Of a stretch of 64,000 nt of DNA, positions 18,988 through 63,408 are shown piece by piece. The notes under the pieces are model-generated. The model was not told the origin of the DNA. It saw nothing but the letters and a program-made list of their open reading frames with translations, and ran no database searches. The first letter of the stretch is position 1. The number at the start of each line of letters is the position of its first letter. Origin of the DNA: Schizochytrium sp. TIO01 (taxonomy: Eukaryota > Sar > Bigyra > Thraustochytrida > Thraustochytriidae); contig SMSO01000031.1 in assembly GCA_004764695.1 (NCBI GenBank), positions 4,077,048 to 4,141,047 of the forward strand. The letters run 5' to 3'. The translations under genes and the position numbers were made by a program.

Positions 18988-21640
18988 ATGATGGGCGTCG
19001 AAGGCGAGGGAATGGCGACGTCGGGAGCTGGTGGCAGCGCGAGCAGGCTACTTGCACTGCCGGGGTCGGCGTTCGGACTTGTGGTGGGCTTCCTGGACGC
19101 CGACGACGAGCAGGCGTTGCGGGCAAGCTGCCGCGTCTTCGCGCTCATCCTTGCGCACCTCATGCGCGCAGCATCCGCAGGGTATGATGTACACGACGCA
19201 GACGAGTTCCTGCGTAGGCCCACTGTCGCCGTCGTACACCCGTGGGTCGCCGTTTCAAAGAGGTATGCGAGCCTCTCGCCGTACTCCGTGGTGGAGTGGG
19301 AAATCCTCGTACAGCTCGCATTCCTACGCGGAAAACTGTCCACCCTTCTCCTGTATAGGAACACAGACCAAATTGGGTCCATGGTTGTTGACTCACTCTG
19401 CATGCGCCTGCTGCCCACAGAGTTCTCCGAGCTCATCGCGCGCAGCTCTCTGGCTTGCATCGCTGCGCTCAACATCTCCGAGAACCTCGCGGAGATGGCG
19501 AGGAGCTGCCAGCGTCAAGTTTTTCTCGGCTCAGCGGGTAGCAGCGTGGGAGACGAGGATGTGGAAGACGAGGATGTGGAAGACATGGAGGACGATGAAG
19601 AAATAAGGGCCGCAAGGGGAGACGCCGAGGATGACATCGATGACGATCTCGAGGAAGACATGGACCACAGCGAGCTGAAAAACGAAGCCACGGACGACAT
19701 CATGGAGGAAGATACCTCTAGCGTTGGAGACTGGCGGGCCGTAGACGACAGTAAACGCCTCAACAGCAGCGGGAGTGGAGACGCGACGAGCACGAGTACA
19801 CCGCGGACGAATTCAAGGTCAGACGATGAGGAGATGCCAGCAAGGGCGAATGGAAGGAGGGGGGTTAGCAACTCAGACGATGGAGACGTAGAGATGATGA
19901 CAGCTTCTTCGAATGCGTCCTTTCAGGAAAAACCTTCTTCCTCGACCTCGTCATCACCACCAGCGCCGGGACCACCGGCGAACACGATATCTTCGTCATC
20001 TTCGTCGGAGTCATCTACAAGGAATTGCGGAGTGCGCCAGCAGCTACACCAGCATCAAAATACTGCAGGAGTACCCCAAAAAACTAAAATCACCTCGCCC
20101 AACGGGCGTCAGCACCAAAACAGCTTCCGCAACGGTGTCGCCAGCAATAGTGAATCTAGCAACGCTAACAATAACACCCATGGCGGGCCGATCAAAAACT
20201 CGCTCAGCAAATCAAGTAGCGACAGTAACATCACCTCCACCAATAGCTTTAACCAGAGCGAGGGCGCGAAGACAGAGAACTCGACCACCCCTAGTAAGTC
20301 TGATAACTTCCACGACCAATCTGACGAGGAAAAGGTCCACGCCTCCTCCTCCTCATCCACGCGCATCGACGACCAACTTATTGACCAAGACTATTTTGGC
20401 TCAGAGCTCAACGATGTGGTGGCTGAACGCATGGCTATTCTCAAGGGTTCCTCACGTAGCGAAGACTTTTATCACCAGAAGCAAGACGCCCTCAATGGCA
20501 TTGTTAACCTAGTGGAGAATCAATTCGCATACTGCAGCCGCGTTTTGCGGTTTCCCCTGTGGAATGCTGCCTGCAATGTAGCAACCGCTAGCGGAAACTC
20601 ACTCCTTACGTCTGACCGTGTAGCCAGCTTATATACAAACGGCTTTTGCATCATAGACAATTTTTTGACAGAAGGCACCGTGCGTGCTGTTTTCCAGCGC
20701 TGTGTCGATTTTGTGAAAATGACCAACTCAGTGCTTAATCTACCTGCTGATGAACTCGAAAAGCTTGGTCTCCCTGAGCCTTCCTCCTTTTTCATGATGC
20801 GCGGTGACCCACCTACTGCTCGCGGAGATTGCCTACTGTGGCTCAACCGCGAAGCCCCACCAGGCTCAAAACCACCCTTTTCTGGTGTCATGGATCGCTT
20901 TACACAACTCTACGAAGAGCTCGGTTCCGTCATCAAATTACAGGGAGGAAGAGAAGCTCAATTGGCGTTTTACCCTGATCAGGGAGAGGGGTACCGCCGC
21001 CACCGGGACTCCACACCCGACGACGGATCTCGCGTTTCAGACAACCGCAGAATTACCGCCATTTGTTATTGTAATCCCAGCTGGGATGAGTCCCACGGAG
21101 GAAAGGTAAGTAGTATACGTTGAAAACATAATGCGTCGACTTTTGTGAGCACCACCAGTACACTTTGTATTATTTCCTCTTAAAACCAAACAATTACAAG
21201 TAGAAGACATGGTTGACCACTTGTTGTTGGATTTATTACTGCCAGGGCAAGACCTTCCCCGAAGGAGAGTCCTGTGTTCCGATCGGTTGCTTGTCTTTTG
21301 TGTACAGTTTTGAGAAATTGGGTTCAAAGATCGATATAATGATCACATGCATTTTTTCATGGGAAAACTAACTGACATATATATTGTTACCGAACACCCC
21401 GCTTCGTGCACACTGAATTGAGTGAACTTTTCGTCTCTGGTGGATCAAATCTTTGGGGAAAAAAAATAAAAAAAACAATAAAAACAGCTGCGGTTGTGGC
21501 TTAGCCATTTACCGTCCGAACCTGTCATCGACCTGAGGCCTCTTCCTGGCCGCCTGGTCGTCTTTTTGAGTGGACTCTTGGACCATGAAGTGCGCCCCTC
21601 TTTCCATGGCCGCGTTGCCGTGACAAACTGGTTCTGGTAA
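18988..21640 (+). CDS. EGLN/PHD-type prolyl 4-hydroxylase with F-box-like N-terminus (two exons)
   Basis: This is a 2-oxoglutarate/Fe(II)/O2-dependent dioxygenase predicted to hydroxylate a prolyl residue, like animal EGLN and Dictyostelium PhyA. Exon 1 is 18988-21105 (706 codons) and exon 2 is 21488-21640 (50 codons plus TAA), joined in phase 0, giving 756 residues. The catalytic domain begins near residue 545 (LYTNGFCIIDNFL, EGLN-like). The iron ligands are H672 and D674 (YRRHRDS) and H739 in exon 2. R748, nine residues later, is the 2-oxoglutarate-binding Arg. The end, HEVRPSFHGRVAVTNWFW, matches the EGLN pattern HEVxPxxxxRxAxTxWxx. Residues 21-58 (LLALPGSAFGLVVGFLDADD and on) resemble an F-box. 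Residues 188-500 are acidic and Ser/Asn-rich, presumably disordered. Without exon 2 the enzyme would lack its last ligand. Catalytic call firm; F-box call tentative. Confidence 0.9.
21106..21487 (+). other. Spliceosomal intron of the hydroxylase gene
   Basis: The donor AAG|GTAAGT at 21106 is canonical. The acceptor AAAACAG|CTG ends at 21487. Removing 382 nt joins GGK to LRLWL in phase 0 and supplies the missing HEV segment, which is the main support. The bases before the acceptor are A-rich rather than pyrimidine-rich. Confidence 0.88.
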
Positions 21641-22420: not shown

Positions 22421-25400
22421 TTAATCAAAAGTTCTTTGTCTAGTAATACGTTCAATGCTCTCAAGCTGACGTGAAAATTTTTCTTGTGCGGCAGCATACA
22501 ATGCCATGTCACACTGGTTGTACTCCTCAATCAAAGCGCGAGCTTCATCGGATATAGTTTCAATAGTTTCGAAAATCACTGATCGACGATTTGATCCATG
22601 TGTTGATGCTGCACACCCTTTCGTAATGCTTGTCTCAAGCCATGGAAGAAAGTACCCAAATACGTCGACTGTTTCTTCCCACCGCTCCTGTATTCCTACA
22701 AGAAACTCGTCATTGAGACGTTTCACTGCAAGATCTACCGTACATCTACCCATTGTCTCAGCAGCAGATTTCAATGGAGCCATAAGGGGAGATTGTCCAC
22801 TATGAGTTTTTACACCACACACCATTTTACAACCTGCATCACTTAGGCCTTCATCCCGCCAGAGACTGTATGCAGAGCCACGCCAAAAATTTAATACAGT
22901 TCGAAGATCTCTGGCTGGCAAGTCGTTCAATTTGATGCCATTCTGAGGATAAACTCGCTCATAGTAATATGATATAGCACGCGCGACGGGGTGACGTTGG
23001 ATTGTGGACACATAAGCTCGAGGAACCCTAACTCTTCCCATGCTCCGTACGCAAAATGACCTCCAAACAAGTTCTCAGAGGCTGAGGCCTGGCGCAGGTT
23101 AAACGTCATACAGTCGACACCACCATGACAAGGAAGAAAGCTCTTCAAGTCTGGACTTTGTCGACCTGCATCCGCTAAGATATCCCTCAAGCACGTGCCA
23201 GCAGTCTTTTCAAGATGTAAGAATACAAACGGAAGGTCCTGGCTGGGTTGCCACAAAGGAACAGGATGCTTACTACCATAATATCTTTCCAAATGTCTCA
23301 CAAGCAAATACCGCTCCATATATGATCGCGACATCTTGATACAATCACATCGTTCAAGACGGTGCGCCGTACATGTGTCTGAGAGTGCATATGGTACGTC
23401 TTCACTTGCCATAACAAGTCTGCCATCACCTATAGAAAATGGTAATCCACTATATGGCTCAGGAAATTGCAAGGTACGACGATCTTGCAACTGGAAATGT
23501 CTTCGATTATGTCCTGATATCCACGACTCTACAGTTGCCAGAAACGACGATTTAATGACTTGAATTGAATGAGCAAACTCGTTGAATTCGAAGGAGTTCA
23601 TGCATCTCGTTGGGTGTAACAATTCACAAGTCTGAGAATCCCACAATCGAGTGCAAAATTTACGTTCGGCAATTGCTTCTTCTTGCACTCTTGTCGAAGG
23701 CATAAGACCATTCCCAGCCCACTTGAATTCAATCTTTGGCAATACAAAGTAAGACCATGACGTACTACCAGGAACCTGCCTGACTTCCGTAAGAGCCCAT
23801 GCTGAACCCACGACAGTCATATTAATATCATCAGCACATGTGTTCAAGAGTTCGCCAGAATCAATATGCAAGTCTTCTCCGTATATGACAGCATGATCAA
23901 GAATACTAAATGAGTTCACCGCAGTTTCTACACCAAGTCGTGCTAAATCTGGGTCTACATTTATGGGTATGTTCTTGGACCACCAAGGGCCCTGAAGCCA
24001 TGATTGCTTACTCCAACGAACGACAAAGGTTGGTTGGGGCTCAGGTTTTTGGCAAATTGCTATTGCGTTCTGAGAACCTACAAGAGCCTGAGATGTGAAT
24101 TGCCAGTGCCAGTCGCACCATCCAGGTTGCATGAACAAAACCAAACTTGTGCCACTGGGCATAAAAATTGCGTTATGCGCCGCAGTGCCTTGCTGACATA
24201 CAAGCACGTCAGTTTCGTGCGCAAATAAAGATAGCTGCTCTCTAAAACTTAGCTTTTCAAGGTGAGCAATTTGAACAATAATGTTTTTCATGCCAAGAAG
24301 GGAAGAAATTACCTCCGGAAAGTTCAGTATTGTTCGAGATCCTTCACGTGCAACCACAGTCACCCGATGAACATCTTCTTCCTTCTTTGCTTCCGTCTCT
24401 GCGGGAGGAGCATGGCGCAAAAGAAAATCTCGAAGAGACGAGTACCTTTGTCTTCTTTGGTCTAAATTACGAAGATCCGGGCCACGTACAGAAAATGTTT
24501 CCCTCACATCCAATTGAATATGAACCTCATCATCAAAGCAGGTGATACCAGGAAGCATATCCAAAGCCCGTTTTGAGTGAATTGTAAAACCAGTAAAGTG
24601 TCGCAAAAGAGAGAAAGCATTTCGCTCTCTGCCTATATAGGTTCCAAGCAATGCTGCAAAATATTCTCTCATGTTGTGTTGATCTGCAACTCCCATGAAC
24701 ACAAGTGGTTCCTTGCCCTCTGCCCGCAGCCTTTGTGTAACATCAAATAAGGCTTCAAATACGTCAATAATTAAATGACCAATATGCCACCCCAAAATGT
24801 CAAAGATTATGACCGGCTGCGTGATTCTTCGTGCGCAATATAAATGTTGGGGTGTTCTAGGAAGGACGTGCGCCGTTGTTAAATCTGAGTTGCCTGCTGC
24901 ACTGATAAAGCTTGACCAGCGACTAACTCCAACAATTGACCGATTCAGGTGTTCATGAGCACCCAAGGGGTCAATTACAAGAAGCCTAGCATTCCTCCCC
25001 TCAAGCATGCCTCCATCATACCCACATCCATGGCATTGAGCACTTCGATGCATGGAAGGAACACTATTGATACTTTGAACAGAGACGTAACGCGTATCCG
25101 GTAGTCTCAGGTCTAGTGGTGGGGGTAGCGGGCAAATATCTTCATATTTCAAAAAAGGCTCATCGCTACAATCTAAAGGTAAAGGCATCTTCTGCAGCTT
25201 GCGTTGCAAAAAATACTCACACAATATTCTGGTTTGTGGAGATGCAGAGTTCCAACAGTCACGAGTCACAAGTGTCTCTGATTCTAAGTGTTTCTGGCAG
25301 CTTTGAAGCAGTGATGTATCTAGGGTGAGGTTTTGGCTTTCGCTTGCATTCAGAATACAGGCTGGGCGGACAGACTCAGCAATTGCTAGGGCCATAAATA

Positions 25401-25479
25401 TAAATAACAGGGAGTAGCGAACTATGGGCTTCGCATATGGCCATCTTGTGCAAGGCTTTCTTAAGATTATAAAACCCAT
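22421..25479 (-). CDS. Golgi-type GT61-like glycosyltransferase fused to a sulfotransferase; reading frame broken once
   Basis: A type II membrane protein predicted to build and sulfate a polysaccharide or glycoprotein glycan in the Golgi. The frame from 25479 has a short basic N-terminus and a membrane anchor (about residues 20-35). A GT61/DUF563-like domain follows (about 205-470), with VVAREGSRTILN and GTAAHNAIFMPSG at 431-443. Residues 500-740 are of unknown nature. The sulfotransferase PAPS 5'-phosphosulfate-binding motif is at about 755-762 (HLEKTAGT). The frame is then lost near 23026-23028 (a GGG on the coding strand). The remainder continues in the next frame from about 23025 to 22421 and carries the 3'-phosphate-binding motif (QRHPVARAISYYYE). 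With one base supplied there, the protein would be about 1019 residues. It may be a sequencing or assembly error, or a recent lesion. It starts 600 bp from the divergent TOM6-like gene. Confidence 0.82.
23021..23040 (-). other. Frame change site in the GT61-sulfotransferase gene
   Basis: Upstream (25479 side) the frame reads GAWEELG. Downstream, the frame one base earlier reads VPRAYVSTIQRHP. The two halves are adjacent parts of one sulfotransferase domain with no gap. A GGG run at the junction is a natural site for a base-count error. No GT-AG intron of plausible length fits. Confidence 0.75.
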
Positions 25480-28780: not shown

Positions 28781-30289
28781 CTAACGAAGGCGCTCTATGC
28801 GCTGTTGAACAGTGTGTTCTGGTGCCTGCGTCCAACGCCTCATCGCATCGAATTCCACAGACCTGGCGTGCTTCATTTGCTCAGTATCCCCAGGGTGAGA
28901 GAAAAACAAATCAACGTGGTGACCGCCCCCATCAATATTTACAATGGTCAGGTCTCGCTTTTTCTGCTGTTCAACAGATAAGACACCATCGAATGAGCGA
29001 ATCGAACCACTGCTCCAGGGATCTGCCAACCCGTTCGAAAACACCACATTGGTAACAGTGTTGAGCAAGACCTTCTTATTACCATAGCGCCGGCGGACCA
29101 ATGTCTCATCAGGTGTCAGGTTGAAAAACTTTTCACAAGCTTCACGCACCATGTCTGCTGAATTTGGGTAATCAAAGAACATATCTGAAGTTCCTGTCAT
29201 GGCAAAGTAAAACTCCTCTGGAAACTGCTCAGAACAGTATTGATGACTCCACAAGGGTCCAGAAAAACGGTCACCGGTCTCTGTGGTGTTAGGCACATCC
29301 AAGCATTGCTCCTTCTTTGAAGCATTTGCGAAAACTTCTGTTGCTGCCATCAAGGCTTCCACGGGATCAGACTTCACAGCTCCGGCCTTGCAAGCAGCCT
29401 TGATGGGAAACGCAGGGAGTAGGACGTTTGCATCTCCAGTCAAATATGAACTAGGGTATGGAAAGTTGCCCATAGCCATAGTGTCGAATGCGTTGGCCAC
29501 ATACAGGGCAACATCGAGAAACGATTGTGGTTCGTGGCAAAAGTTTCCAAGTTTTTGTAGCAACCGGAGTGACTTTTTGCCTTCTAGCAGGAGCTTAAAA
29601 CCCTCTCGAACCCACCCTTCACAATCTGGACCTGCAGTCTCTGTTACGACCCGCCAGTAAGCATTGCCTCCATCATTGTAGAAATCCAGGCCTTCGCCCC
29701 GAAATGCAAGAACAGGCGCACTTGCTGCAATCGCGCCGGATATGAGTCCAGGATACTGCATGCGGAAAAAACAAGCTAGCATGCCGCCATAAGATCCGCC
29801 TATTGCAATTGATCGAGATTTCCAGGCGCTATGATTAGCCTGGAAAGAGTATAAAACATTCGCAAAATCTGCTAAAGCTTGCTCATGATTGAGAAACTCA
29901 AGGTCCTTGTTATCGTGAATCTTAGACTCACCATAGTACCTGTGTTCTGCAAAAATAATTGCAGCATGCAGTTTAGGCGCAGATTCCCAAATTAGACCTG
30001 TAGCATTCACATAGAGAGTCACATCTGCTTCGTTGCCATTGTAAAATAGAATTGGATAACCATCGCCTTTCCAATGGTCCAAATTGATGAATAATCTTTG
30101 TGCATACACTTCACCTTCCTTGGCAGTGCCAAAATGGTCAACCTTGTTCATAAACCAGTGCTGTGTGACATGGTCCGAGGGCTTGAAGTTTCTCGGGTTT
30201 CCCACTTCATATGGCGTGATGCTCGAACTGCTGCTACCCTGGGCAAGAATGAGCAGTGTACTCGCGATGCAAGCAAGCACAGAGCGCAT
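28781..30289 (-). CDS. Family S28 serine carboxypeptidase (lysosomal Pro-X carboxypeptidase/DPP2-like)
   Basis: A secreted or lysosomal/vacuolar peptidase of 502 residues, predicted to cleave next to proline. An N-terminal signal peptide is visible (MRSVLACIASTLLILAQG). The catalytic triad is S166 in GGSYGG, D423 in NGLADPWSSG and a His at 457/458 in GGGHHVDL, all in the order and spacing of PRCP. Other family landmarks include FAEHRYYGES (115-122) and NHEQALADFA. Length matches PRCP (about 496). N-glycosylation sequons are present (for example NAT and NHS). The start at 30289 is chosen because it puts the signal peptide first. PRCP and DPP2 cannot be told apart by eye. Confidence 0.94.
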   Translation of the reverse strand: MRSVLACIASTLLILAQGSSSSSITPYEVGNPRNFKPSDHVTQHWFMNKVDHFGTAKEGEVYAQRLFINLDHWKGDGYPILFYNGNEADVTLYVNATGLIWESAPKLHAAIIFAEHRYYGESKIHDNKDLEFLNHEQALADFANVLYSFQANHSAWKSRSIAIGGSYGGMLACFFRMQYPGLISGAIAASAPVLAFRGEGLDFYNDGGNAYWRVVTETAGPDCEGWVREGFKLLLEGKKSLRLLQKLGNFCHEPQSFLDVALYVANAFDTMAMGNFPYPSSYLTGDANVLLPAFPIKAACKAGAVKSDPVEALMAATEVFANASKKEQCLDVPNTTETGDRFSGPLWSHQYCSEQFPEEFYFAMTGTSDMFFDYPNSADMVREACEKFFNLTPDETLVRRRYGNKKVLLNTVTNVVFSNGLADPWSSGSIRSFDGVLSVEQQKKRDLTIVNIDGGGHHVDLFFSHPGDTEQMKHARSVEFDAMRRWTQAPEHTVQQRIERLR

Positions 30290-31184: not shown

Positions 31185-34094
31185 CTAAAGCCTGTTCATA
31201 ATAATACTGATAGGGTCGAGGTCCTTGGCGAGTGCAGCATCGAGTTCCGCATCAGTATCCTGCGACATGGACGAAGTCTGTTGTGAACTATTGCTCGTTC
31301 CAGCGCTGTTGATAAGCAAAGCAGCTTCAAGATGTTTCTTGCGCGTCTGAATTTGAAGGATGTTCTCATCTACAGTGTCGCGAGTGACCAATTTAATCAC
31401 AGTGACAGGCTTTGTTTGCCCAATTCGATGACAACGATCTTCTGCCTGGCGATCTGTAGCGTGGCTCCAGTCCAAATCATGAAGAATCACAGTGTCTGCA
31501 GAGGTCAGGTTGATACCCATGCCGCCTGCACGAGTGCTTAGCAAACAAGCAGAAATGGACATGTCTGTGTTATACTTGTCCACAATTGTTTGGCGATCAT
31601 GAATTGCTGTTTGACCATCAAATCGTACAAATAACATGCCCATAGAGTTGAGCATCTCCTCAATCAGATCCAGCAGAGTTGTCCACTGGGAAAAAATGAG
31701 GAAGCGATGGCCATCCTTCTTGAGTTGTGGCAGAAGAGTTTGCAACTGCCTTGCCTTTGCAGAAGTCCACAATGCCTCCTGTGGAAGAATCATTCCGCGG
31801 AGTTCACCATTGCGAGAGCCATACTCCAGTGCTAAAAGGTGAAAATCCCAATCCGAATAATTTTTTATTTCCTTTTCGATCATTCGCACCGTCGCAGCTG
31901 GGCCGAAGGCTTTCACACGGTTTAGGAGATCGACCACCTTGTCAAGAGAACGCGCGACACCGTCTGGACTCTCGTCAGCAGATTTGCCAAAATATTGGCG
32001 TACTAAGAGTGGATGATTGGCAGCTTTGCGAAGCTGAGAAAAAAAGTGGGTAGTCACTGAGTCTAGCTCGCGTGTTCCCCGTTTAGAATTCTTAGCATCC
32101 TCCTTCTTCTGGCGGTAAGACTTAATAATATCCTTATACACCTTGTTTTGTACATCGGGCATTTCAATCAAGCGAATGTCGTCAGTCTTCGGGCTCAATT
32201 GACCAAGAACGTCAGCCTTGAGACGCCGCAAGACAAAAGGCCGCATAGCATCGCGAATCCGACCGATTGAAGTTGACCCTCTGTTATCGGCATCGTTGAA
32301 ATATTCTGCAAGGCGGTCGCTCGATGCGTTAAAAACTTTCGGCATACAGAATGACATCAGTGCAAGAAGCTCTTGCAGATTATTTTGCACGGGGGTTCCA
32401 CTCAGCAGAAGGCGTCGACGTGAAGAAAGACGAACTAGACGCCTATAACGCGCTGAGTTCATGTTCTTCATACCATGAGCCTCGTCATAAATGATGTACT
32501 GGTAAGCAAACTTAGAGAGGAAAGCGCGATCAGCACCTGATGAGTCACGCTCAAAGTAAGTGTAAGTGGTGATGAGGATGTCCACTTCAGGATTCTTGCG
32601 TGCTTTTCTTTCGTAGCGTTGGGCGAGACCAGTGCGTGCTGCTTGAGAACCATGATAGACTTCGACTCGTGCCCACGGGACCCAGCGTTGAACTTCACGG
32701 CGCCAGTTCTCCAGAGTTGAACCCGGTGCGACGACAAGATGGGGTCCTCGAACATCTTGGGTTTTCTTGAGCCATGCAAGGATAGCAATGGCTTGCACAG
32801 TCTTACCCAAGCCCATTTCATCTGCGAGGATACCATTGAGGTTTTGCGAGTAAAGCAGTCTAAGCCAGTTCAGGCCTACTAGCTGATACTCTTTTAGAGA
32901 ATATCCTTCAGGGAAAAGAGCATCAGCAGCTTCACGCGTTACCAGGTCGTCCTTTGTATTTTTGTTCTTACTCTTCGACTTCAGAGCTGCTTCAGGAAGG
33001 TTGATGTCTTGCACACTCTTGGAGAGGCGTTTGGAGATGGCCTCGCAATTATCGAACATAGCTTGCACTTCATTGCTTTCATCTCCACTGCTGGCGTCGC
33101 TGTCAACACCTTGGTCATTGTTATCGTCGTCCTGCTCAATGTCCTCTGAATCTTCTTCGTCAGAAGAAGATGCAGCATCCATTAAGGCCTCTGCGCGGCG
33201 TTCGATCTCGTCTAGTTCATCGTCTCCGGAAATTTCCTCCTCCTTGAGAGCATCCGAATCACTATCGACAATAGCCGAGTCCTCATCATCATCCATGGAT
33301 ACACGTTGGCGCTTAACAGGGTTCTTGACCTGGCCACGCTGCAAGCGCTTAGACTTTGTGCTCTTCTGCGGTTCTCCACCTCCTTTGAGAAGTCCCCGGC
33401 CTCCACGCTGCAACGTCTTTGCACCTGTGCTGGAAGACTTCTTGTAGTTTCCGTCGCTATCGTCATCGCTGCCATCGCTGCTACTACTATCAGAGACGCG
33501 GCTGGCGCCCTTGCGAAGGGTACGCGAAGCGTTTCTCTTTCCTCTAACTAGCTTGCCTTTGCTACCCTTGCGAATAACCTCCACATCACTATCTTCATCC
33601 GATGATGAAAGCATGGTCACATCGAGGGGGTGACTCTCCTTGTGTGTCTTTGGTTTCAGAGCTGTCGATCCTTTCACGAGCTTCTTCTTGGCAGCAATAT
33701 TCTTGCTCACGATCTCAACATCAGAATCTGACGAATCCGAAAATGACATTGTCAAAGCTGAGGTATGTTGAGATTTGTTTTGTGGCTTGATGCCCAAGTC
33801 TTTTGATTCGGTTATGGATTTTTTCTTGTCCTTGTCCACACTCACCCCTTGCGAGTAATCTTCGTCGTTAGCGTGAGCGAAAGTTTTAGTTTGCGTGACT
33901 TGTTGTGAATTCTTATTGAATGGACTAGGGGCCTTGCCAAGAAGCTTGCGTTTTTCTGCCTCGCTGAGTCGGTCTGGCCTTTTCGACACCTCAAACTTGG
34001 AGAAAACGGCTTCAGACACAGCGTTGTCACCCAAACCGACGTGTTGCACAAGGGATGGCGACAGAAAGTACTTGGACTTCTTCTGCGAACTCAT
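31185..34094 (-). CDS. SNF2-family chromatin remodelling ATPase, Fun30/SMARCAD1/ETL1-like
   Basis: A 969-residue nuclear DNA-dependent ATPase. The N-terminal 390 residues are Ser/Asp/Lys-rich and disordered, with two near-identical acidic motifs DSDVEIV (about 123-129) and DSDVEVI (about 168-174) that resemble SUMO-interacting motifs. The helicase core starts at residue 395: GYSLKEYQLVGLNWL, Walker A DEMGLGKT (425-432), DEAH (537-540), SGTPVQNN (565-572). The C-lobe has FLIFSQWTTLLDLIEEML, RAGGMGINL and the arginine-finger motif DRQAEDRCHRIGQ. The stretch MKNMNSARYRRLV after DEAH and the short insert place it nearest Fun30/SMARCAD1, which act in heterochromatin maintenance and DNA-end resection. 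No CUE domains are evident. Divergent with the NCBP3-like gene. Confidence 0.93.
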   Translation of the reverse strand: MSSQKKSKYFLSPSLVQHVGLGDNAVSEAVFSKFEVSKRPDRLSEAEKRKLLGKAPSPFNKNSQQVTQTKTFAHANDEDYSQGVSVDKDKKKSITESKDLGIKPQNKSQHTSALTMSFSDSSDSDVEIVSKNIAAKKKLVKGSTALKPKTHKESHPLDVTMLSSSDEDSDVEVIRKGSKGKLVRGKRNASRTLRKGASRVSDSSSSDGSDDDSDGNYKKSSSTGAKTLQRGGRGLLKGGGEPQKSTKSKRLQRGQVKNPVKRQRVSMDDDEDSAIVDSDSDALKEEEISGDDELDEIERRAEALMDAASSSDEEDSEDIEQDDDNNDQGVDSDASSGDESNEVQAMFDNCEAISKRLSKSVQDINLPEAALKSKSKNKNTKDDLVTREAADALFPEGYSLKEYQLVGLNWLRLLYSQNLNGILADEMGLGKTVQAIAILAWLKKTQDVRGPHLVVAPGSTLENWRREVQRWVPWARVEVYHGSQAARTGLAQRYERKARKNPEVDILITTYTYFERDSSGADRAFLSKFAYQYIIYDEAHGMKNMNSARYRRLVRLSSRRRLLLSGTPVQNNLQELLALMSFCMPKVFNASSDRLAEYFNDADNRGSTSIGRIRDAMRPFVLRRLKADVLGQLSPKTDDIRLIEMPDVQNKVYKDIIKSYRQKKEDAKNSKRGTRELDSVTTHFFSQLRKAANHPLLVRQYFGKSADESPDGVARSLDKVVDLLNRVKAFGPAATVRMIEKEIKNYSDWDFHLLALEYGSRNGELRGMILPQEALWTSAKARQLQTLLPQLKKDGHRFLIFSQWTTLLDLIEEMLNSMGMLFVRFDGQTAIHDRQTIVDKYNTDMSISACLLSTRAGGMGINLTSADTVILHDLDWSHATDRQAEDRCHRIGQTKPVTVIKLVTRDTVDENILQIQTRKKHLEAALLINSAGTSNSSQQTSSMSQDTDAELDAALAKDLDPISIIMNRL

Positions 34095-40303: not shown

Positions 40304-42571
40304 GTGTTTTCGGTCTGGATGACTCAGAAATGCCAAGGCTGGGACTTGGATGGCCCGGATGACGGCGACTACACCGCGCTTTCGAGGCGCCAGAAGAGCG
40401 CGATCCGCGCTGCTATGGCTGGTCGGCATGTTTTTGTGACTGGCGGGGCCGGTTGTGGCAAGTCGAGAACCGCCGCAGCGCTTGTGGCGGCTCTGAGGAG
40501 GCGATACGGCGTGGAACGTGTCGCGGTGACGGCGGCTACGGGTCTGGCAGCAACTTCTTTGGATCAGGCGACTTCTCTGCACGCATTTGCGGGCATTGGC
40601 CTCGGAAAAGGATCTCGCGAGGACCTCGCAGTCCTGGTACGTGGTAAAGGTGATGCCCGGCGACGATGGATGCGAGCCCGGGCGCTCGTGATTGATGAAA
40701 TTTCACAGATTGACGCCGAACTACTCGATGCTTTAAGTTTTGTAGCGCGAAAAGTGCGGCCAGCAAAGAACAAGGGTGCCTTTGGCGGACTTCAGATCAT
40801 CCTTGTGGGAGATTTTGGGCAGCTACCGCCGGTTCGTAGCGAGGCAGGACTTGCATTTGAAGCGGAGGTCTGGCAAGAGCTGTTTGGTAAGGAGAAAGGA
40901 TTCGTGGTGAACCTCGATAGGTGCTTCAGACTGCAGAGTGTCTGTGAGATCAACCACCAGATAAACTCCGATTCACAAAAACAAAACAAAAGTCAGGATC
41001 GTCGGAACGACACAAGGTATCAGAAGCAATTACAACATGATGACCATCACCATCAAACAGATCAGCGAAACCTTGGGAAGCGCGAGAAACTGCAAGATCA
41101 AGAAGCCCAGGCCAATGATATATTTCTGGAGCATTTAAATGCGCTCCGGATGGGGAAATTATCAATTGAGGGTGCACGCTGGCTCAAAAAGACTTGTCCA
41201 GTTCGTAGAGCTGAAGATGAACCAGAACCTACACAGCTCTGCGCACGCAATGACCAGGTGAATCGTATTAACGAAGAGCGCGTGGACACATTGGCTAGAG
41301 ATGGTGCAATTGTTCATGACTTTGTGGCACATGATTCTCTACAAACCCCAACGATAAAGAAGGATATAGATTGTGCAACGCGATTTCCACGATATCTACG
41401 CCTTGCGGTGGGGGTGCCCGTGATTCTTCTTACCACACTTGATATGCGACGAGGACTCGTGAATGGCACACAAGGGACTGTGATACGATTCGAAAGATGC
41501 AATGAGAATGGCAAGACGCTTGACCTTCCTTTAGTATCGTTTAGGACTTACTCTCAACAAGGACGAATTGAACGTATTATTTACCCTTGCAAAACAGAAG
41601 TGCCTCTGCATGGCTGTCAAGGCTGCGTGTCAGTTTCTCGTGAACAGCTGCCACTAGTTCCAGCATTTGCTATGACTATTCATAAGGCTCAAGGCCTGGA
41701 GTTGTACCGAGTACGAGTGAATCTTTCTGGTATGTTTAGTTGTGGGCAGGCCTACACTGCATTATCACGAACTAAGTCAGTGGCTGGATTGGAGATTGAA
41801 AATCTTAATGAGAGGTCTATCTGTGCGCACCCGAAAGTTGTTAAGTTTTATAATAACTTGCTGGGTATCTCAACAAGACACATGACGCATGCGAGAGAAA
41901 CTTGTAACGAAGCTGGCGACTCTAGTGATGAGAACATGAACGACGATCTAAAAAATGGTTTTGAGAATAAAGGCCGTCACGATCTCTACCAGTCATTTTC
42001 TAAAATCGAAGAAGATAATGAAACCTCTTCCGAGAGATCTGTGTCAACAAATTATGCTGATGACTCTGCTCTTCAAGAGCAATGCAATCTTGTGTTTAAA
42101 ACTGAAATCGATACATCCAACGAAACTTCAACACTAGACTTTGCGACGAGTCCGTCTAACACCGCACGCAGAGGAATTCTAATAGAGACCTCCCACTCAC
42201 ATGGCATTGCTGTGCACGGTAAGTGCGATGGGCCATACAACATTAATGATGCGAGGTCGAGCAATTCGGAAAAGAATTCTGATTACCAGCTCATTAAGCG
42301 AAGCAAAAGTAAAAAGCGAATCTCTTCAACTCCAGGGAATGAGAGCAAGCAGTCTAATAATCATCCTCGTAAATTGCAGTGGCGTCGCCGGCCTGCAGGC
42401 CCGGATTGCAGTGCGGCATCCTCTTGTAATACTACTATGCCTGCTGAAATTGATCTAACTGATTCGCCAATTCCCGCATCTCCGGATGACGAATGGGAAA
42501 GTACGGTGATCCCTTCTACCCCAAACAATGGAGAAGAGAATGTGGTAATTCCAGAGTCGCCATTCCCTTGA
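40304..42571 (+). CDS. PIF1-family DNA helicase
   Basis: A 755-residue SF1B 5'-3' DNA helicase predicted to unwind DNA, as at forks, telomeres or G-quadruplexes in nucleus or mitochondria. Walker A GGAGCGKS (47-54), Walker B VIDEISQID (129-137), motif III ILVGDFGQLPPV (166-177), and the C-terminal helicase motifs FAMTIHKAQGLELYRV and AYTALSRTKSVAGLEI are all present. A Gln/Asn/His-rich insert (about 222-265) sits between RecA folds. Residues 540-755 are disordered. The last 43 carry EIDLTDSP (about 715-722) and ENVVIPESPFP, which resemble a SUMO-interacting motif and a phospho-SP site. The start may be the Met at 40304 or the second Met at 40319. It converges with the ATG10-like gene, stop codons 125 bp apart. 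Confidence 0.93.
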   Translation: MFSVWMTQKCQGWDLDGPDDGDYTALSRRQKSAIRAAMAGRHVFVTGGAGCGKSRTAAALVAALRRRYGVERVAVTAATGLAATSLDQATSLHAFAGIGLGKGSREDLAVLVRGKGDARRRWMRARALVIDEISQIDAELLDALSFVARKVRPAKNKGAFGGLQIILVGDFGQLPPVRSEAGLAFEAEVWQELFGKEKGFVVNLDRCFRLQSVCEINHQINSDSQKQNKSQDRRNDTRYQKQLQHDDHHHQTDQRNLGKREKLQDQEAQANDIFLEHLNALRMGKLSIEGARWLKKTCPVRRAEDEPEPTQLCARNDQVNRINEERVDTLARDGAIVHDFVAHDSLQTPTIKKDIDCATRFPRYLRLAVGVPVILLTTLDMRRGLVNGTQGTVIRFERCNENGKTLDLPLVSFRTYSQQGRIERIIYPCKTEVPLHGCQGCVSVSREQLPLVPAFAMTIHKAQGLELYRVRVNLSGMFSCGQAYTALSRTKSVAGLEIENLNERSICAHPKVVKFYNNLLGISTRHMTHARETCNEAGDSSDENMNDDLKNGFENKGRHDLYQSFSKIEEDNETSSERSVSTNYADDSALQEQCNLVFKTEIDTSNETSTLDFATSPSNTARRGILIETSHSHGIAVHGKCDGPYNINDARSSNSEKNSDYQLIKRSKSKKRISSTPGNESKQSNNHPRKLQWRRRPAGPDCSAASSCNTTMPAEIDLTDSPIPASPDDEWESTVIPSTPNNGEENVVIPESPFP

Positions 42572-43676: not shown

Positions 43677-44773
43677 TTTCTTTTGTACCCATGCTTTTCT
43701 TTCTAATAGATGGTAACAAGGGGAACAATCTTCGGCGCTTATCTACACCGAATTTTCAATTACCGTTGAGAAGCTGGATTCTTGTAATTTTAATTTAGTG
43801 ACAAAGCATGTAGCATGTCCAGATTGGATACCAAAGTGAGTCTTGGAATCAATTTCAGAGCACTGTATAGTTAATCAAAATTAAAATTGTGTCTTCAAAA
43901 GTTGTTGATTTCAGTATAAACATGAAAAGGACTACAAGTTCAATACAAGCATATTATATATATTTAAAGCTTGCCACGCTGCGCGGAGGCAGAGATATCT
44001 ACCTGATGTCTTAATGTATCCTTGGGTGTGATCATAGGACATAGAGAAAAGGTCATGCAAGCTGGGCAAGTTGAGCTAACAAGTCAACACCACGTGATCA
44101 GGGTTTAACCGTGATAATAATCCGTAATATTGTAAATGTGCAAGCTCTGTTGGTAACGGATTTTTAAGAGAGGTATTGCTAGCTTTAAGCGCCATGTGTT
44201 GTGGAGTGAATGCGTGCATGCGGGGGGGGGAGTGTACCAAAGAAAGGGAACGCGCGGTCCTGCTGTATAACACAATGTGGAAGACTACGCAACCTGCGCG
44301 TCCGTGAAATAGAGCTGGTGTCTTCACACAATTAAAGAGAGACAGAAAAGAACTCAAATATTGCAGAATATTTGATGACCAAAAACTAAGCAAGCGCCTG
44401 ATAGCAGACGACGGCGCGGCTGACTTTAGCTATTGACTGAAAGCAAAGGTACAGGAGACGGCTCGGTTGCAAAGAACAAGTTAATTTCCTTGCGCTTGAT
44501 AGTCGACAACATAGTAGTCAGTTTGAATCACCCAGCCTTCTCGGTCATTGCTAGCGAAGTCAGGCACCAGACTTCACTTGTTAAATCGTACAAACTTGAG
44601 GTTTATTGCACAGACTTTATTTTATTGTAGTCTAGAATATTGAATTTGAGCATCGCGAGGGATGGAGTAGTCCGTCATTGGTTAGACCGTCAAAAAATCG
44701 ACTGCGCTACTCTTCCTTGGTTAAACCAACAAACAAATTCTAATCATTTTCTTTGAAAGTTGATTGCGACACG
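43677..44773. other. Divergent region, ATG10-like / phosphodiesterase
   Basis: About 1.1 kb, partly A/T-rich (43900-43980), with a G9 run at 44221-44230. No coding frame with motifs was recognised. Presumed promoters of both flanking genes. Confidence 0.5.
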
Positions 44774-47700
44774 ATGGGCGGGGCGTCCTCTGTTGCGGAC
44801 GCCCGTGACCATACAGCGTCAGCATTGAGAGAAAAGGCTGAAATTCTCCTCACCGAAAAGGCAAGGCAACCAAGTGAGACGAGTGAAGTCCTTCGACAGT
44901 ATGTCGAACTTTATGATAATAGTGAGGCTGGCCTTCGACAGCATTTGATGCGATTCCAAAGCCTCATGGAAAGCGTTGTTCAAAGCAGTGGGGCTCCGAT
45001 GCCATTGCAAGAAACTAGTCAAGCATTCATAGAACATGCTCATCAGTGGTTGGACATGGACGCATTCCCAACACTCATAGGAGTGTTCGTCAACAGTGAT
45101 ATTTTAATGCCTGGGGAGAGCGACAAAAAGGGTTATGGACTCGTTTCTGTGAAAGGTGACATAAAACACTTTGAGGACTTCAATCAAATACAGGATATCT
45201 TTTTGAGTGAAGGGCAAGTACTCTCTGAAAAATGTATAAACTTGAGCGAGGTTGAAGAGCATGTCACAAAGGAGTATGGGAAGAATAAAGTTAAGCTGCA
45301 CATGCTAGGAATTCCAATCTTTGGTTTTGGCGGGCACGATCTTGATGTATTATCCTATAGCCACCATCAAAGTAGTTGTTCATCACGAATCACACAAACT
45401 ATTCAGACTGTTGACTCAAAAATTTACGCCGACACACTTCACGAGGTCCCGGAAGAAGGTGTAGAACCATCAGAAGAAAAGGCTGCAGAAGAAAAACACT
45501 CCACTCAGGAAGAAATTTACACTGGACGAACTGATGAGTCTGAGGCTGTGGCTCCACAGATTGGCGCTGTAATGGTATTTTGTCAACGTTATAAAGAGGA
45601 ACAATCATCCCCTTCTAAGGAAAAGCTTCGGATGATTCGAGAGACGTTGCGACTCTTTGTTGATGCCGGTGGATTCCTGAAGCAAGCTGTGAAGGCTGAG
45701 GTGCGACAAGAACAACTGCAGAGGTCTCACCAACTCCTAGCAACATCAATGGACTCCTCGTATCTCTTCAACAACACGGAGAATGTTTTTAGAGCCTTGC
45801 AACTTTACGAAAGCTATCTTCAAGACACGCTTTCCGCAGAGTATTGTCTTGTGTTGCTAGTTGACGACACTAAAATGCAGCTCTGGCGGAAAATGGGCAA
45901 CAAACGAGTCTTACAAGTACCAATTTCTGGAGATTCCATCATTGGGGAGGTGGTAACAAGTGGAATTTCTATGCGAACCAACAAAAGAACACAATTGGGA
46001 ACAGCAGATTTTGAAGTCTTCAATTTTCTGAGTGCTAATAGTTCTTTGAATAGCGAGTTGAGGTCGATTATGTGCGTGCCGATTGGTAGCGATGTAGAGA
46101 CTTTTGGCGTCGTCGCAGTCTTCAATAAGCATGAATTCCATCAGCTTTCTTGGCCTAAACAATGTACAAAGCACCAGAGCTTGCAAGGGCGTGGATATAG
46201 CTCAAAAAGTCTTATGACGAAGGTGCAAATTTCCAAAACCCTCGACAACTCGTTTAGAAGATCTCCAGTTCAAATGCACAGTATCCGTGAATCCAAGTTC
46301 TGCAAATTCGATGAGGATCTTCTTTATGTAACGATTGAGGACCTTACAGGACTGATTGCATTCAAATATCTGGACTTGATTTATATGATGCAGGCGTCAC
46401 ATACCTCGGAACATGACGGAGATGACCATTTACGGTCTCTACTTGCTATGTATGACCCTTTGAAACGGAAAATAAACTCTCGTAGTGCTTATGGAAGTAG
46501 TACAACATCTAAAATACGCAAAGAAGGAAGTACCAACACACTACGTAGTGGAACTGAGGATATATTGGGGGTATTAGCGCATGCTCAACCTGATATCTCT
46601 TCCGAGCTTGCTGGAACTCATAGTAATGATCGGGACAAACTTGGGAATAAAGTCGACTGCCACGAGGACGAACTTGAGTCCTGGGACTGCGATGTGCTTG
46701 CTATTCCCGAATCACAACTCGATAAGTGTAGCATATCTATCTTTCAAATGTTTCACTTGCATGACTATTTCCAGATGAAGTCCTCCACCCTGGCATCATT
46801 CGTAGAGGAGGTACGTAAAAATTATCTACCAAACCCATATCACAATTTCGCGCATGGCTTTAGTGTCCTGCTTGGCTCATCCATGATGCTGCGAAAAGGC
46901 TGTGCAGAGCTTTTGAGGATGGATGACATTCTCGCTTTACTCGTTGGTGCGCTTTGCCATGACGTTGGTCACCCTGGAACGAATAACGATTTCCAAGTAG
47001 CTAGTGGCTCGAGTCTGGCTCTTTTATACAATGACGTATCTGTACTTGAAAATTTCCATGCAAGTAAAACATTCAAGATTCTACAGAAGGACTCCTGTAA
47101 TATTCTTAGCGGCATCTCAGAGAGAAGCAAGGTTCGAAAAATCCGTGAAATGATCATTAAGGCTATTCTCTCAACCGATATCTCCAAACATTTTCAGCTC
47201 ATTGATCAGCTTAAGACAAAATATCAAGCAGCTGTTACGGAGCAAGTTAATGCTAAAATAACTACTGTAGACAATGGGCAGATCCATGAATCATCTGTTC
47301 TATCAAATGAGATAATGTCGCCTCCCTCTGCACACTCCCCAAAGACTCGAGCAACACTCATGCAAGCGCGCCGTGGGACTTTCACGATGGGTTCGGGCAT
47401 CAAACCTCGTCCGAACAAGTTAACGTTGACAAAAATGAATTCTGCAGCCTCCTTTCGAGAAGGTCTTCTAAGTCCTAAACCAAAGAGCGCTCGAGCTTCG
47501 GGTGCAAGTCAGCCTTCGCTTGCGACTGTTCGAAGCGCAGACGTTTTTGACCGCAAAGAGTTCTCGGATCGTATGTTACTTGTAGAAATGATTATCCACT
47601 CTGCAGATTTGTCCAATCCAATTCTTCGATTTGACTTATACCAAGGATGGACTGACTTGGTTGTTGAGGAATTTTATAATCAAAGTCTACAAGAAAAAGC

Positions 47701-48022
47701 TCTAGGCCTCGATTCGCAGCCGCACATGTGCAATCCTCCTTCAGATGACCTTGCCAAGGCCAAACTCCAAGTTAGTTTCATTGATTTCGTTGTTGCACCA
47801 CTCTGGGTTGTGGTACAAGAAATTTTTCCGTCTCTTGCAGATCGTTACGAGACTTTGGAGAACAACCGTGATACTTGGAAACAACTCATACGTGAGATGT
47901 CTGAAGACCCAGGTAGAGCACATCGCTCTAGCACAGCATCTGCCCGCTCGAACATTGACAATAGTGAGAGCAAACAAACTGAAAAATCAGATGAATCACG
48001 TAGTGCTGAATCGCAACGTTAA
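44774..48022 (+). CDS. Class I 3',5'-cyclic-nucleotide phosphodiesterase with GAF domain
   Basis: Hydrolyses cAMP or cGMP, ending second-messenger signals. In the frame from 44753 (1089 residues; 1082 from the preferred start) a GAF-like domain spans about 330-460. The metal-binding catalytic domain holds H697-N-x2-H701 (YHNFAHGFSV), H736-D737-x2-H740 (CHDVGHPGTNND) and D952 in HSADLSNP, the full set of class I ligands. An insert of about 100 residues (about 830-930, Ser/Thr/Lys-rich) splits the two halves of the catalytic domain, unusual for the family. The start 44774 gives MGGASS, a good N-myristoylation signal, whereas the upstream Met at 44753 would hide it. The C-terminus is a Ser-rich tail. 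Substrate preference cannot be read. Confidence 0.94.
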   Translation: MGGASSVADARDHTASALREKAEILLTEKARQPSETSEVLRQYVELYDNSEAGLRQHLMRFQSLMESVVQSSGAPMPLQETSQAFIEHAHQWLDMDAFPTLIGVFVNSDILMPGESDKKGYGLVSVKGDIKHFEDFNQIQDIFLSEGQVLSEKCINLSEVEEHVTKEYGKNKVKLHMLGIPIFGFGGHDLDVLSYSHHQSSCSSRITQTIQTVDSKIYADTLHEVPEEGVEPSEEKAAEEKHSTQEEIYTGRTDESEAVAPQIGAVMVFCQRYKEEQSSPSKEKLRMIRETLRLFVDAGGFLKQAVKAEVRQEQLQRSHQLLATSMDSSYLFNNTENVFRALQLYESYLQDTLSAEYCLVLLVDDTKMQLWRKMGNKRVLQVPISGDSIIGEVVTSGISMRTNKRTQLGTADFEVFNFLSANSSLNSELRSIMCVPIGSDVETFGVVAVFNKHEFHQLSWPKQCTKHQSLQGRGYSSKSLMTKVQISKTLDNSFRRSPVQMHSIRESKFCKFDEDLLYVTIEDLTGLIAFKYLDLIYMMQASHTSEHDGDDHLRSLLAMYDPLKRKINSRSAYGSSTTSKIRKEGSTNTLRSGTEDILGVLAHAQPDISSELAGTHSNDRDKLGNKVDCHEDELESWDCDVLAIPESQLDKCSISIFQMFHLHDYFQMKSSTLASFVEEVRKNYLPNPYHNFAHGFSVLLGSSMMLRKGCAELLRMDDILALLVGALCHDVGHPGTNNDFQVASGSSLALLYNDVSVLENFHASKTFKILQKDSCNILSGISERSKVRKIREMIIKAILSTDISKHFQLIDQLKTKYQAAVTEQVNAKITTVDNGQIHESSVLSNEIMSPPSAHSPKTRATLMQARRGTFTMGSGIKPRPNKLTLTKMNSAASFREGLLSPKPKSARASGASQPSLATVRSADVFDRKEFSDRMLLVEMIIHSADLSNPILRFDLYQGWTDLVVEEFYNQSLQEKALGLDSQPHMCNPPSDDLAKAKLQVSFIDFVVAPLWVVVQEIFPSLADRYETLENNRDTWKQLIREMSEDPGRAHRSSTASARSNIDNSESKQTEKSDESRSAESQR

Positions 48023-60840: not shown

Positions 60841-63408
60841 TTAGAGCTCATCTACTTCATCCATATCATCAGAGTCTAGTTTGTCAATTGCAAGCTTGAT
60901 CAGGTTAGCATCCTTAGGGTCAAGGTCTAGTGCTGTTGTAAAGTGTATCATGGCTTCGTCCCGGCAGTCGAGCTGTTTGCAAAGCTTGCCCATGAGAAAG
61001 TGCACACTAGATTCATGAGGAGCAAAATCGCGAACTGCCTCCAGCTCGTTGAGGGCAGCCTCATAGCATTCCATAGTGCGGAGCACTAATGCTCGCTGAA
61101 AACGGGCTTGTGGGTTACCTGGCTCCAGGCGGCTTGCACGCAACAAGACATCAAGAGCTTCTTCGCAGCGGTCGCTCGCATGCAAAACCATGCCCAAATA
61201 GCAGTACAGAACCGAAGAGCGCGGATTAATCGCGACTGCGCGGCGAAAGTGAAATTCAGCCACAGAGTACTTTTCCTGACGGTAGTAGATAGTACCTAAA
61301 CCATACCATGCCGGGTAATGACGTGCATCGCTAGAAATTGCTGCTCTGTAACAAGAGGTAGCCTTTTCAAAGTCCTCATTTGACACATACTCATGCCCTG
61401 ACAGAGTTGATGCATATGTGAATGTTGGATCAAGCATCAGAGCTCGTTTGAAAAACTTGATAGCGAGATCGTGCTCCTTTTGCAACGAAAAGCAATTGCC
61501 GAGCACACACCACACCTCTGGTGAACGCTTGTCAATCTCTACAGCTTGTTGAGCCAAATAGCACAATTCCACTTCCTCCTTGAGATGCCAAAGATTTGTG
61601 CTATAAATTTCCAAGCCTGCCGTACGATCAGGCGCGTAGGCTCGCATGTTCTCGAAATAGGCTTTGGCTCGTCGATAGTCAGCCATCTCAAAACAAGCCC
61701 TTCCTTGCTGGTGCGCAACCCAGCCTGTAGCTTGCTGGGTAAGCGGAAGCCGTCCAAACGCTTGCAAGGCCTTGTCACATTTGTACTGGTTCAGAAAGCG
61801 AAATCCCTGACCCATAGCACGGAAAAGATCAAGCACACGCAAAGATCCAATAAGCGCGTCCACATTAACTCCACCTCGTCCGAGGCCATCAAATCTACCA
61901 GAACCAAATGGATCTCCTGAGCCACCACCATCGTCACCGGGATTACCGTGGTCAGCAGGCTTTTCCGCATTCTCAGCATCCTCGTTGCTGCGAACATTAG
62001 CGTAACCCATCTGCTGGTTTTCGGTATCCACATCTGTGCCACGACCTCTTGCGACAGCTCCAGTGTTACCTGCTGCGACAGTTCGGCGAGAACTGCGGCG
62101 AGTTACTGGTCGGTTGCTTGCTGGATTAGAATCTGGACCAGGAGCTCCGCCGTCTGGACCTGGAGTGTTAGTTGTCCCACCAGACACCGGTTCAACAGGC
62201 TCCCCGTCTTTGCAGAATCGAAGGTAATTGAGATCTTCAGAAGAGTTTATGCAAAGCTCCTGACCATCGGCGAGAGTTGGATTCGGGTGCCATGGAAACC
62301 TTGTTGTTCGGCGCAAGCTAAAACCAGTACCAACTAAGGCTGACTGGATTCCTCGTACTACGCCTGGTACCGTCCTACTCCGTGAGCGTGAACGAGTGCG
62401 TGCCCCAAATCCTGCTGCATTGTTTGTACCCGAATCATCCGTGGATGCAGACCCGTCACTTGAAGATAGACGCAAAGATGACACATATGAGATTCCTGAT
62501 AAAAGCTCGTTAGTAGAGCTTTCGAGAGGAACAGGAATTGGCGCTGGGTCATCAAAACCTTGATCATTCAATGTCTCCACTTGTCTACGTGACGGTTCTC
62601 TTCGCCCCCTCCGATGGGGCGTTGGGGTGTGACCACCCGCATTTTCCTCATCTACAAGATCCATATCCTTGTTATCTCCATCCTCATCTTCACTTCCTGA
62701 TAGTAGCTCAAGGTCATCCTCGTCAGAAAATGCCTCCTCGTCTTTAACAGCCTGTGGGTTAGTTTCCCAGGTCAAGACATTACGACTCGAATCAAATTGT
62801 AATGGAGTACGTCCAAAGAAACTTTCTGGCGGTACATCCACACCGAGCTTGCATAAATGTTCATAGGCGTCCCACAGAAATGGATCGAGTCTAAGGGCCA
62901 GTGCGAAGTATGAGATAGCATGCTCTCTACGATTATCCCTCTCGCAAATTAATCCAAGAAGATAAAGACCAGCTGCACCGTTGGGAATTTGTACCTTGCC
63001 CCGCAAAATATCATCTTCCATTCGTTGTGGACCTTGCTGCGCCAGCAGAGTACCTTTTATCAAAGCTGACTCTGCTTCTCGAGTGTGACCTAACATCAGA
63101 CAAGCCTTCGCAAGCAGGTATCGGTTTTGCATAAGCATAGGGTCATCAAGACCCATAGCCTCGACAACATCCATACTCCGTGTAAGAGCACCGTATGCTC
63201 TCTGCGGGGCATTGGATCGCAGGTAGCATGTGGCTAGCAGATTCAGGTTCACAGAGCTCTCAGACTGCGCATAAAGCCTCTCAGCAAGAAACGTAGCATT
63301 TTCATACAGATATTGCTGCAGGTACTTTGTCACTAATTTGCGTAGTGTGTTCTCCAATGCCGAGTCCCAGCGGCCTTCCGACATCATTGCCAAGCTTTCC
63401 ATAACCAT
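60841..63408 (-). CDS. CDC27: Anaphase-promoting complex subunit CDC27/APC3
   Basis: An 855-residue TPR scaffold subunit of the anaphase-promoting complex/cyclosome. It binds the Cdc20/Cdh1 C-box/IR tails so that mitotic cyclins and securin are ubiquitinated. N-terminal TPRs (about 1-190; LYQQYLYENATFLAERLYAQ-type dimerisation motif) are followed by a long acidic, Ser/Arg/Gly-rich disordered loop (about 225-500). A second TPR superhelix occupies about 525-830, with classical motifs (WCVLGNCFSLQKEHDLAIKF, ALMLDPTFTYASTLSGHEY, AWYGLGTIYYRQEKYSVAEF). The tail is acidic. TPR number, the split by a disordered loop and the length (human 824) all fit. The start at 63408 has MVMESLAMM; a later Met is possible. 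Confidence 0.95.
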   Translation of the reverse strand: MVMESLAMMSEGRWDSALENTLRKLVTKYLQQYLYENATFLAERLYAQSESSVNLNLLATCYLRSNAPQRAYGALTRSMDVVEAMGLDDPMLMQNRYLLAKACLMLGHTREAESALIKGTLLAQQGPQRMEDDILRGKVQIPNGAAGLYLLGLICERDNRREHAISYFALALRLDPFLWDAYEHLCKLGVDVPPESFFGRTPLQFDSSRNVLTWETNPQAVKDEEAFSDEDDLELLSGSEDEDGDNKDMDLVDEENAGGHTPTPHRRGRREPSRRQVETLNDQGFDDPAPIPVPLESSTNELLSGISYVSSLRLSSSDGSASTDDSGTNNAAGFGARTRSRSRSRTVPGVVRGIQSALVGTGFSLRRTTRFPWHPNPTLADGQELCINSSEDLNYLRFCKDGEPVEPVSGGTTNTPGPDGGAPGPDSNPASNRPVTRRSSRRTVAAGNTGAVARGRGTDVDTENQQMGYANVRSNEDAENAEKPADHGNPGDDGGGSGDPFGSGRFDGLGRGGVNVDALIGSLRVLDLFRAMGQGFRFLNQYKCDKALQAFGRLPLTQQATGWVAHQQGRACFEMADYRRAKAYFENMRAYAPDRTAGLEIYSTNLWHLKEEVELCYLAQQAVEIDKRSPEVWCVLGNCFSLQKEHDLAIKFFKRALMLDPTFTYASTLSGHEYVSNEDFEKATSCYRAAISSDARHYPAWYGLGTIYYRQEKYSVAEFHFRRAVAINPRSSVLYCYLGMVLHASDRCEEALDVLLRASRLEPGNPQARFQRALVLRTMECYEAALNELEAVRDFAPHESSVHFLMGKLCKQLDCRDEAMIHFTTALDLDPKDANLIKLAIDKLDSDDMDEVDEL

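Follow-up and report, generated by a model that had tools for sequence, protein, structure and literature searches.

Does a protist oxygen-sensing enzyme carry its own F-box, and if so, what does it hydroxylate? The question is raised by one gene in a 64,000-nucleotide stretch of contig SMSO01000031.1 of Schizochytrium sp. TIO01 (the window; positions are counted from its first letter), part of a genome of 64 Mb in 37 contigs whose introns, Skp1, F-box proteins and other families mark it as eukaryotic. The initial annotation proposed an EGLN-like prolyl hydroxylase joined to an F-box, which could bind Skp1 and hydroxylate it. The explanation that we favor overall, and to which we would give an even chance, is a divergent PHD-clade hydroxylase with an N-terminal anchor, a tether and a client other than Skp1. 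Articles are cited by PMC number.

The gene lies on the + strand at 18988-21640, and the coordinates first assigned to it are exactly the ends of its two exons, which join into a product of 756 residues as read from the sequence. The features of the gene and its product are as follows.

18988 to 21105, + strand: exon 1, 706 codons, from the ATG to a GTAAGT donor, encoding the N-terminal helical region, the disordered linker and most of the catalytic domain
21106 to 21487, + strand: intron of 382 bases, GT...AG, starting with GTAAGT and ending with ACAG, read from the sequence
21488 to 21640, + strand: exon 2, 50 codons and TAA, encoding the end of the catalytic domain with the HEV and the 2OG arginine (PF13640 positions 55-98)
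18988 to 19542, + strand: residues 1-185, N-terminal folded-looking, helix-rich region, from the hydropathy profile and low-confidence AF2 helices
19057 to 19140, + strand: residues 24-51, candidate F-box-like segment (PSSM 17.7 bits, hhalign P 0.0035, without a Pfam match)
19543 to 20367, + strand: residues 186-460, low-complexity linker rich in Ser, Asp, Glu and Asn, disordered by composition and by the hydropathy/charge profile
20368 to 20619, + strand: residues 461-544, pre-catalytic region from the hydropathy/charge profile, a possible D2 counterpart
20620 to 21637, + strand, intron inside: residues 545-756, PHD-type 2OG/Fe(II) prolyl hydroxylase domain with ligands H672, D674, H739 and R748

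The frame of exon 1 runs for 714 codons from stop to stop, against the 706 of the exon, and because a stop thus lies just upstream of the ATG at 18988, the N-terminus of the protein is probably complete. The TAA stop occupies 21638-21640. Once exons 1 and 2 are spliced, PDB sequences match a PHD domain that runs through the junction. Judged by its frame, its GT-AG intron and the joining of its exons, the gene model is real. The order of parts in the product is a helical module (1-185), a tether of about 275 residues (186-460), the pre-catalytic region (461-544) and the PHD domain (545-756). The composition of the linker was counted over residues 186-500, and the hydropathy/charge profile gives a folded appearance to about residues 481-544 of the pre-catalytic region.

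Pfam model PF13640, which has a cut-off of 27 bits, scores 27.9 on the final 245 residues encoded by exon 1 and 27.8 on exon 2 by itself, and falls below the cut-off on the undivided exon 1 (25.8 bits). A PDB search with the spliced domain found 39 distinct sequences at E <= 0.01. The best of these is the Trichoplax HIF prolyl hydroxylase (E 8.6e-16), followed by EGLN2 (2e-15), by 6t8m (2.5e-15; its PDB label is “Prolyl 4-hydroxylase subunit alpha,” and we take it to be Dictyostelium PhyA), by 4iw3 (2.7e-15; presumably the Pseudomonas PHD) and by EGLN1 chains at 1.7e-13 to 4e-12, together with two weak other matches. By these matches the domain is a PHD-clade (EGLN/PhyA/PPHD) enzyme, with no clear preference among EGLN, PhyA (6t8m) and the bacterial PHD (4iw3). 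The EGLN-like catalytic end first described is thus present in its HxD, its HEV, the arginine nine residues on and its general PHD similarity, but it resembles EGLN no more than it resembles PhyA or a bacterial PHD. With the EGLN/HIF prolyl hydroxylases the protein shares the HxD...H...R signature and the PHD core (the Trichoplax match at 8.6e-16 and EGLN2 at 2e-15); it differs from them in having its own N-terminal module and a long tether.

The Fe(II) triad HxD...H and the 2OG arginine are all present, as H672, D674, H739 (H739-E-V) and R748, the last being nine residues past H739. Since these four residues are present and invariant in the alignment with the two nearest PHDs of the genome, L005 and L006, the domain is expected to be active as a prolyl hydroxylase. 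That the gene is instead a catalytically dead or decaying PHD copy appears very improbable, as the catalytic residues, the open frame and the splice signals are all intact. The domain does reach just 61.3 bits against the Trichoplax HIF PHD 6ey1, compared to 123.7 for L006, but as a sign of decay this is a weak point because L005 stands there at a similar 62.2 bits.

PF13640 is found at 17 places in the genome at E <= 0.1, the gene studied here included, and 16 of them are above the cut-off. The nearest relatives of the domain are L006/L066 (blastp 7e-16) and L005/L065 (5e-15), and then L073 (7e-6); with identities of 30% to L006 and 34% to L005, it is about equally distant from both. L006 (1240-2835, contig 35), a further PHD of the genome with E 8.5e-35 to the Trichoplax HIF PHD, carries a long C-terminal extension, and its bit score makes it far more EGLN-like than the protein described here. 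L005 (1108-3057, contig 24) is one 649-residue frame in which PF13640 (3e-21) is followed by the GlcNAc transferase model PF11397 (1.5e-43). Many PHYa genes are reported to be fused to Gnt1-like regions, and such fusions have been described as Skp1-modifying enzymes of protists (PMC6437050). A dual-function P4H/GlcNAc transferase is known to modify Skp1 in the plant pathogen Pythium (cited in PMC8724618). From its domain content L005 is likely to be the Skp1-modifying enzyme of the organism, of the PhyA-Gnt1 type. The protein studied here has in common with PhyA of Dictyostelium and Toxoplasma, and with the PhyA-Gnt1 fusions of Pythium ultimum and other protists, a PHD-clade domain and a protist host. 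It differs from the fusions in that a Pfam search found no glycosyltransferase model in it, the fusion of this genome being the separate gene L005, although Skp1 could still be a substrate of an enzyme that lacks a Gnt1 fusion.

Skp1 with its target proline, to which the initial annotation had pointed, is indeed encoded in the genome. Three divergent Skp1 genes, L001 to L003, stand in a row within about 8 kb (contig 33, 1652284-1660587). The canonical one, L001, contains ...NITNDFTPEEEARVRDENKWCEE, with the target proline in NDFTPEEE, which by its motif we take to correspond to the Dictyostelium Pro143 target. An aligned Pro-Glu at the hydroxylation site is common to all three genes, and their C-terminal ends differ.

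If the protein bound Skp1 through an F-box and hydroxylated that same Skp1, it would be a self-contained oxygen switch on the SCF. The target proline of L001, the aligned Pro-Glu in the three paralogs and the combination of a PHD-type domain with an F-box-like signal are all consistent with such a switch, yet we consider it improbable. The F-box is a candidate only. When Skp1 is bound to an F-box, its C-terminus is ordered around the F-box. In free Skp1, by contrast, the C-terminal 40 residues, target proline included, are thought to be disordered (PMC7864055), and we infer a block of the reaction on F-box-bound Skp1. Hydroxylation of its own bound Skp1 is therefore less likely for this protein, also because L005, a known kind of Skp1-modifying enzyme (PMC6437050, PMC8724618), fits that role. 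A function as the genome's Skp1 hydroxylase, the original proposal, is accordingly disfavored and was rejected as the main reading, with L005 (PF13640 plus PF11397) the better fit. Since the genome already has this PhyA-GlcNAc-transferase fusion, the protein is probably a further PHD with a substrate other than Skp1.

No Pfam F-box model, PF00646 and PF12937 included, matches residues 1-200 or exon 1 at E <= 10, or any of four N-terminal fragments, residues 16-70, 20-65 and 1-90 among them, in searches whose HMMER filters may drop weak matches; the sole Pfam listing in the N-terminus is a finger model of DNA polymerase III that falls well short of its cut-off. The genome has F-boxes of its own, with 12 of 29 listed places above the cut-off for PF12937 and 18 of 29 for PF00646, the two lists overlapping. 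A first lineage HMM was built from 21 of the 29 PF12937 matches, omitting L020, L025, L027, L029 and L033 to L036, which are short, weak or stop-bearing. This HMM gave the query an i-E of 0.0035 for one sequence, and the score was reached by 1.1% of 20,000 shuffles. It is the longer of our models and fails to separate the site, as one non-F-box scored above the query and one level with it among 159 real segments, a set in which the F-boxes are counted along with the query in three copies.

We also made a gapless 28-column PSSM from 17 of the 21 F-boxes of the HMM, with the query excluded; L008, L016, L017 and L023 were omitted for lack of a clean gapless core, and L010, L012, L019 and L024 were set by hand against the MAFFT gaps. 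The top site of the whole protein on this PSSM is at residue 24, with 17.7 bits. Held-out F-boxes score 13.9 to 37.6 bits, two of the 17 lying under the query, and the query score was reached by none of 83 real segments and by a fraction of 0.00035 of 20,000 shuffles. A larger decoy set comprised 148 ORFs (98 from E. coli, 20 from the window and 30 from elsewhere in the organism's genome), and with it we also used a 9-sequence PSSM, made from those 9 of the 12 F-boxes above the PF12937 cut-off that have a clean gapless core. The query score was reached in none of the 148 ORFs with the 17-sequence PSSM and in one with the 9-sequence PSSM, and the corresponding shuffle fractions were 0.00045 and 0.0023. 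A control with rotated PSSMs was discarded as uninformative because small rotations keep the register.

Profile-profile comparison gave a similar picture. An hhalign profile of 10 F-boxes (L022 included, though it is below the PF12937 cut-off) aligned to residues 19-50 of the 1-185 region with P 0.0035 and a probability of 9.3%. Two F-boxes outside the profile, both above the PF00646 cut-off, served as positive controls: L030 gave P 0.0029 and a probability of 10.8%, and L026 gave P 3.8e-5 and 70.7%. Two non-F-box controls gave P 0.45 and 0.56. None of 236 decoy ORF segments did better than the query (best P 0.016), and 3 of 1,000 shuffles did.

Models of the N-terminus add little to this. AF2, run without relatives, gave low-confidence models of residues 1-185 (pLDDT 43.9) and 17-128 (pLDDT 44.1), with tentative helices at 15-36 and 41-63 in one and at 21-36 and 41-63 in the other. 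The first loop of an F-box would sit where these helices break, between the end at 36 and the restart at 41. Foldseek with the 1-185 model (pLDDT 44) returned 142 matches at E <= 10 and none at E <= 0.001; among the best 50 of the 142, designed helical repeats and beta-catenin stand at the top, which is meaningless at such model confidence. The best other match of residues 1-185 in the organism's own genome has E 0.43. Searches that reach close relatives only confirmed none for the N-terminus or for the catalytic part of exon 1 in viral contigs, and none for exon 1 in the genome contigs collection. With phmmer against the PDB, the 200-residue N-terminus matched nothing at E <= 10, and a 56-residue piece had one irrelevant match at E 1.4.

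The F-box pattern first placed near residues 21-58 is thus found at 24-51, where it stands above most of the controls run with F-box models from the organism's own genome, but Pfam does not recognize it and the first HMM does not separate it. Likewise, a profile and structure check of the N-terminus gives the claim the hhalign result, and withholds from it both a Pfam match at E <= 10 and a confident AF2 model. The signal suggests a segment level with the weakest accepted F-boxes of the genome. The share of F-box genes in a genome lies between a fraction of a percent and one percent, and at so small a share a tail of about 0.003 is not sufficient alone to call one. The case is raised by the N-terminal position of the site and by the precedent for F-box dioxygenases. 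On balance, we put the chance that residues 24-51 are an F-box slightly below even.

That precedent is JcdI/FBXO13 of Dictyostelium, Toxoplasma and other protists, which would share with the protein, if its F-box is true, an N-terminal F-box and an O2-dependent dioxygenase in one chain (PMC9485057, PMC11570480). Their catalytic domain is of the JmjC/JmjD6 type, whereas that of our protein is of the PHD type; a Pfam search found PF13640 in it and no JmjC. JcdI is an O2-dependent dioxygenase whose binding to Skp1 requires its F-box, as seen by mutation (PMC9485057), and it was proposed that FBXO13 and JcdI act as enzymes regulated through Skp1 rather than as canonical substrate receptors (PMC11570480). 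In the work on JcdI, overexpression had an effect that was independent of the F-box, and removal of jcdI and jcdH left development unaffected (PMC9485057). The genome has such a gene in L013 (1342-2787, contig 13), with an F-box (3.3e-6) and a JmjC domain (7.4e-14) in one frame, which by these matches is the JcdI/FBXO13 architecture. KDM2A and KDM2B also combine a 2OG dioxygenase with an F-box in one chain, as our protein would if its F-box is true, but they are JmjC histone demethylases and their F-box lies nearer the C-terminus.

Under our preferred reading, a client protein would be hydroxylated on a proline by the C-terminal domain, with Fe(II), 2-oxoglutarate and O2. The enzyme would be anchored to a partner through its N-terminal helical module, and the disordered tether of about 275 residues would give the catalytic domain its reach. 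A catalytic domain on a tether would suit a client held elsewhere in a complex. The partner may be Skp1, bound through a degenerate F-box, with a probability that we likewise place a little under one half. If the F-box is true, the likeliest role would be that of JcdI and FBXO13, a Skp1-bound dioxygenase, with the SCF setting either its level or the ubiquitination of its client; the enzyme would not modify the Skp1 that holds it. The full form of this idea is a PHD-type oxygen sensor that doubles as an F-box protein: tethered and bound to Skp1, it would hydroxylate a client and either hand that client over to the SCF of which it is part or itself be limited by this SCF. We advance this form tentatively, with the balance against it.

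If there is no F-box, the protein might be a PHYb-like (group B) PHD whose N-terminal and pre-catalytic parts form its own scaffold and whose client may lie in translation, as proposed for TgPHYb, for which a translation phenotype is described. Protist PHDs split into group A (PHYa and the animal PHDs) and group B (TgPHYb and others), and group B, which takes in stramenopile sequences, has a 120-residue D2 domain of unknown function right before the catalytic domain (PMC6437050). The protein described here resembles Toxoplasma PHYb and the group B PHDs in having its C-terminal PHD domain after an unassigned domain, and residues 461-544 are a possible counterpart of D2. Since it is divergent from both L005 and L006 and has this pre-catalytic region, it may belong to group B with its catalytic residues intact, and the failure of Pfam to find an F-box also fits. 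However, the stramenopile subgroup B3 has had its catalytic residues replaced (PMC6437050), whereas this protein keeps them, and membership in group B would leave the F-box-like signal to chance (3 of 1,000 shuffles). We regard the group B assignment as possible but doubtful.

The consequences differ with the outcome. In protists, oxygen is sensed through Skp1 hydroxylation and, as proposed, through JmjC-type F-box dioxygenases. An F-box and a dioxygenase in one chain are already known from JcdI/FBXO13, so that the “new direct link” between enzyme and SCF claimed in the initial annotation has a forerunner that binds Skp1 (PMC9485057), with L013 a similar case; a PHD-type variant would be new, provided that the F-box is true. 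By wording of titles and abstract starts, we found no natural protein with an F-box and a PHD-type hydroxylase among the papers listed from the open-licence PMC library; one of those listed, PMC13223302, has an engineered plant system as its subject. If true, such an enzyme would place the fold of the HIF hydroxylases within the receptor of a ubiquitin ligase itself. Two steps that are divided between EGLN and VHL in animals would be joined in one chain, and this in a genome with both a Skp1 switch of the PhyA-Gnt1 type and a JmjC dioxygenase that has an F-box. Hydroxylation-coupled degradation outside animals would gain a simple protein on which it could be tested. Should the F-box be wrong, the protein would extend the protist PHD family by a new member whose N-terminus is unassigned. 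Even then the genome holds three PHD-clade enzymes of different architectures (this protein, the PhyA-Gnt1 fusion and the EGLN-like L006), which suggests that the PHD family is split by task in this protist.

Elsewhere the window contains a PIF1-like helicase frame of 755 residues at 40304-42568 on the + strand (PF05970, 1.4e-30) and, by Pfam, ordinary eukaryotic genes: an Arm/importin-alpha-like gene (566-2188), a GT61 glycosyltransferase (22930-25479), an S28 peptidase (28784-30289), an SNF2 helicase (31188-34094), a cyclic-nucleotide phosphodiesterase (44753-48019), a cytochrome P450 (58395-60074) and a TPR protein with an APC3-type match (60844-63408).
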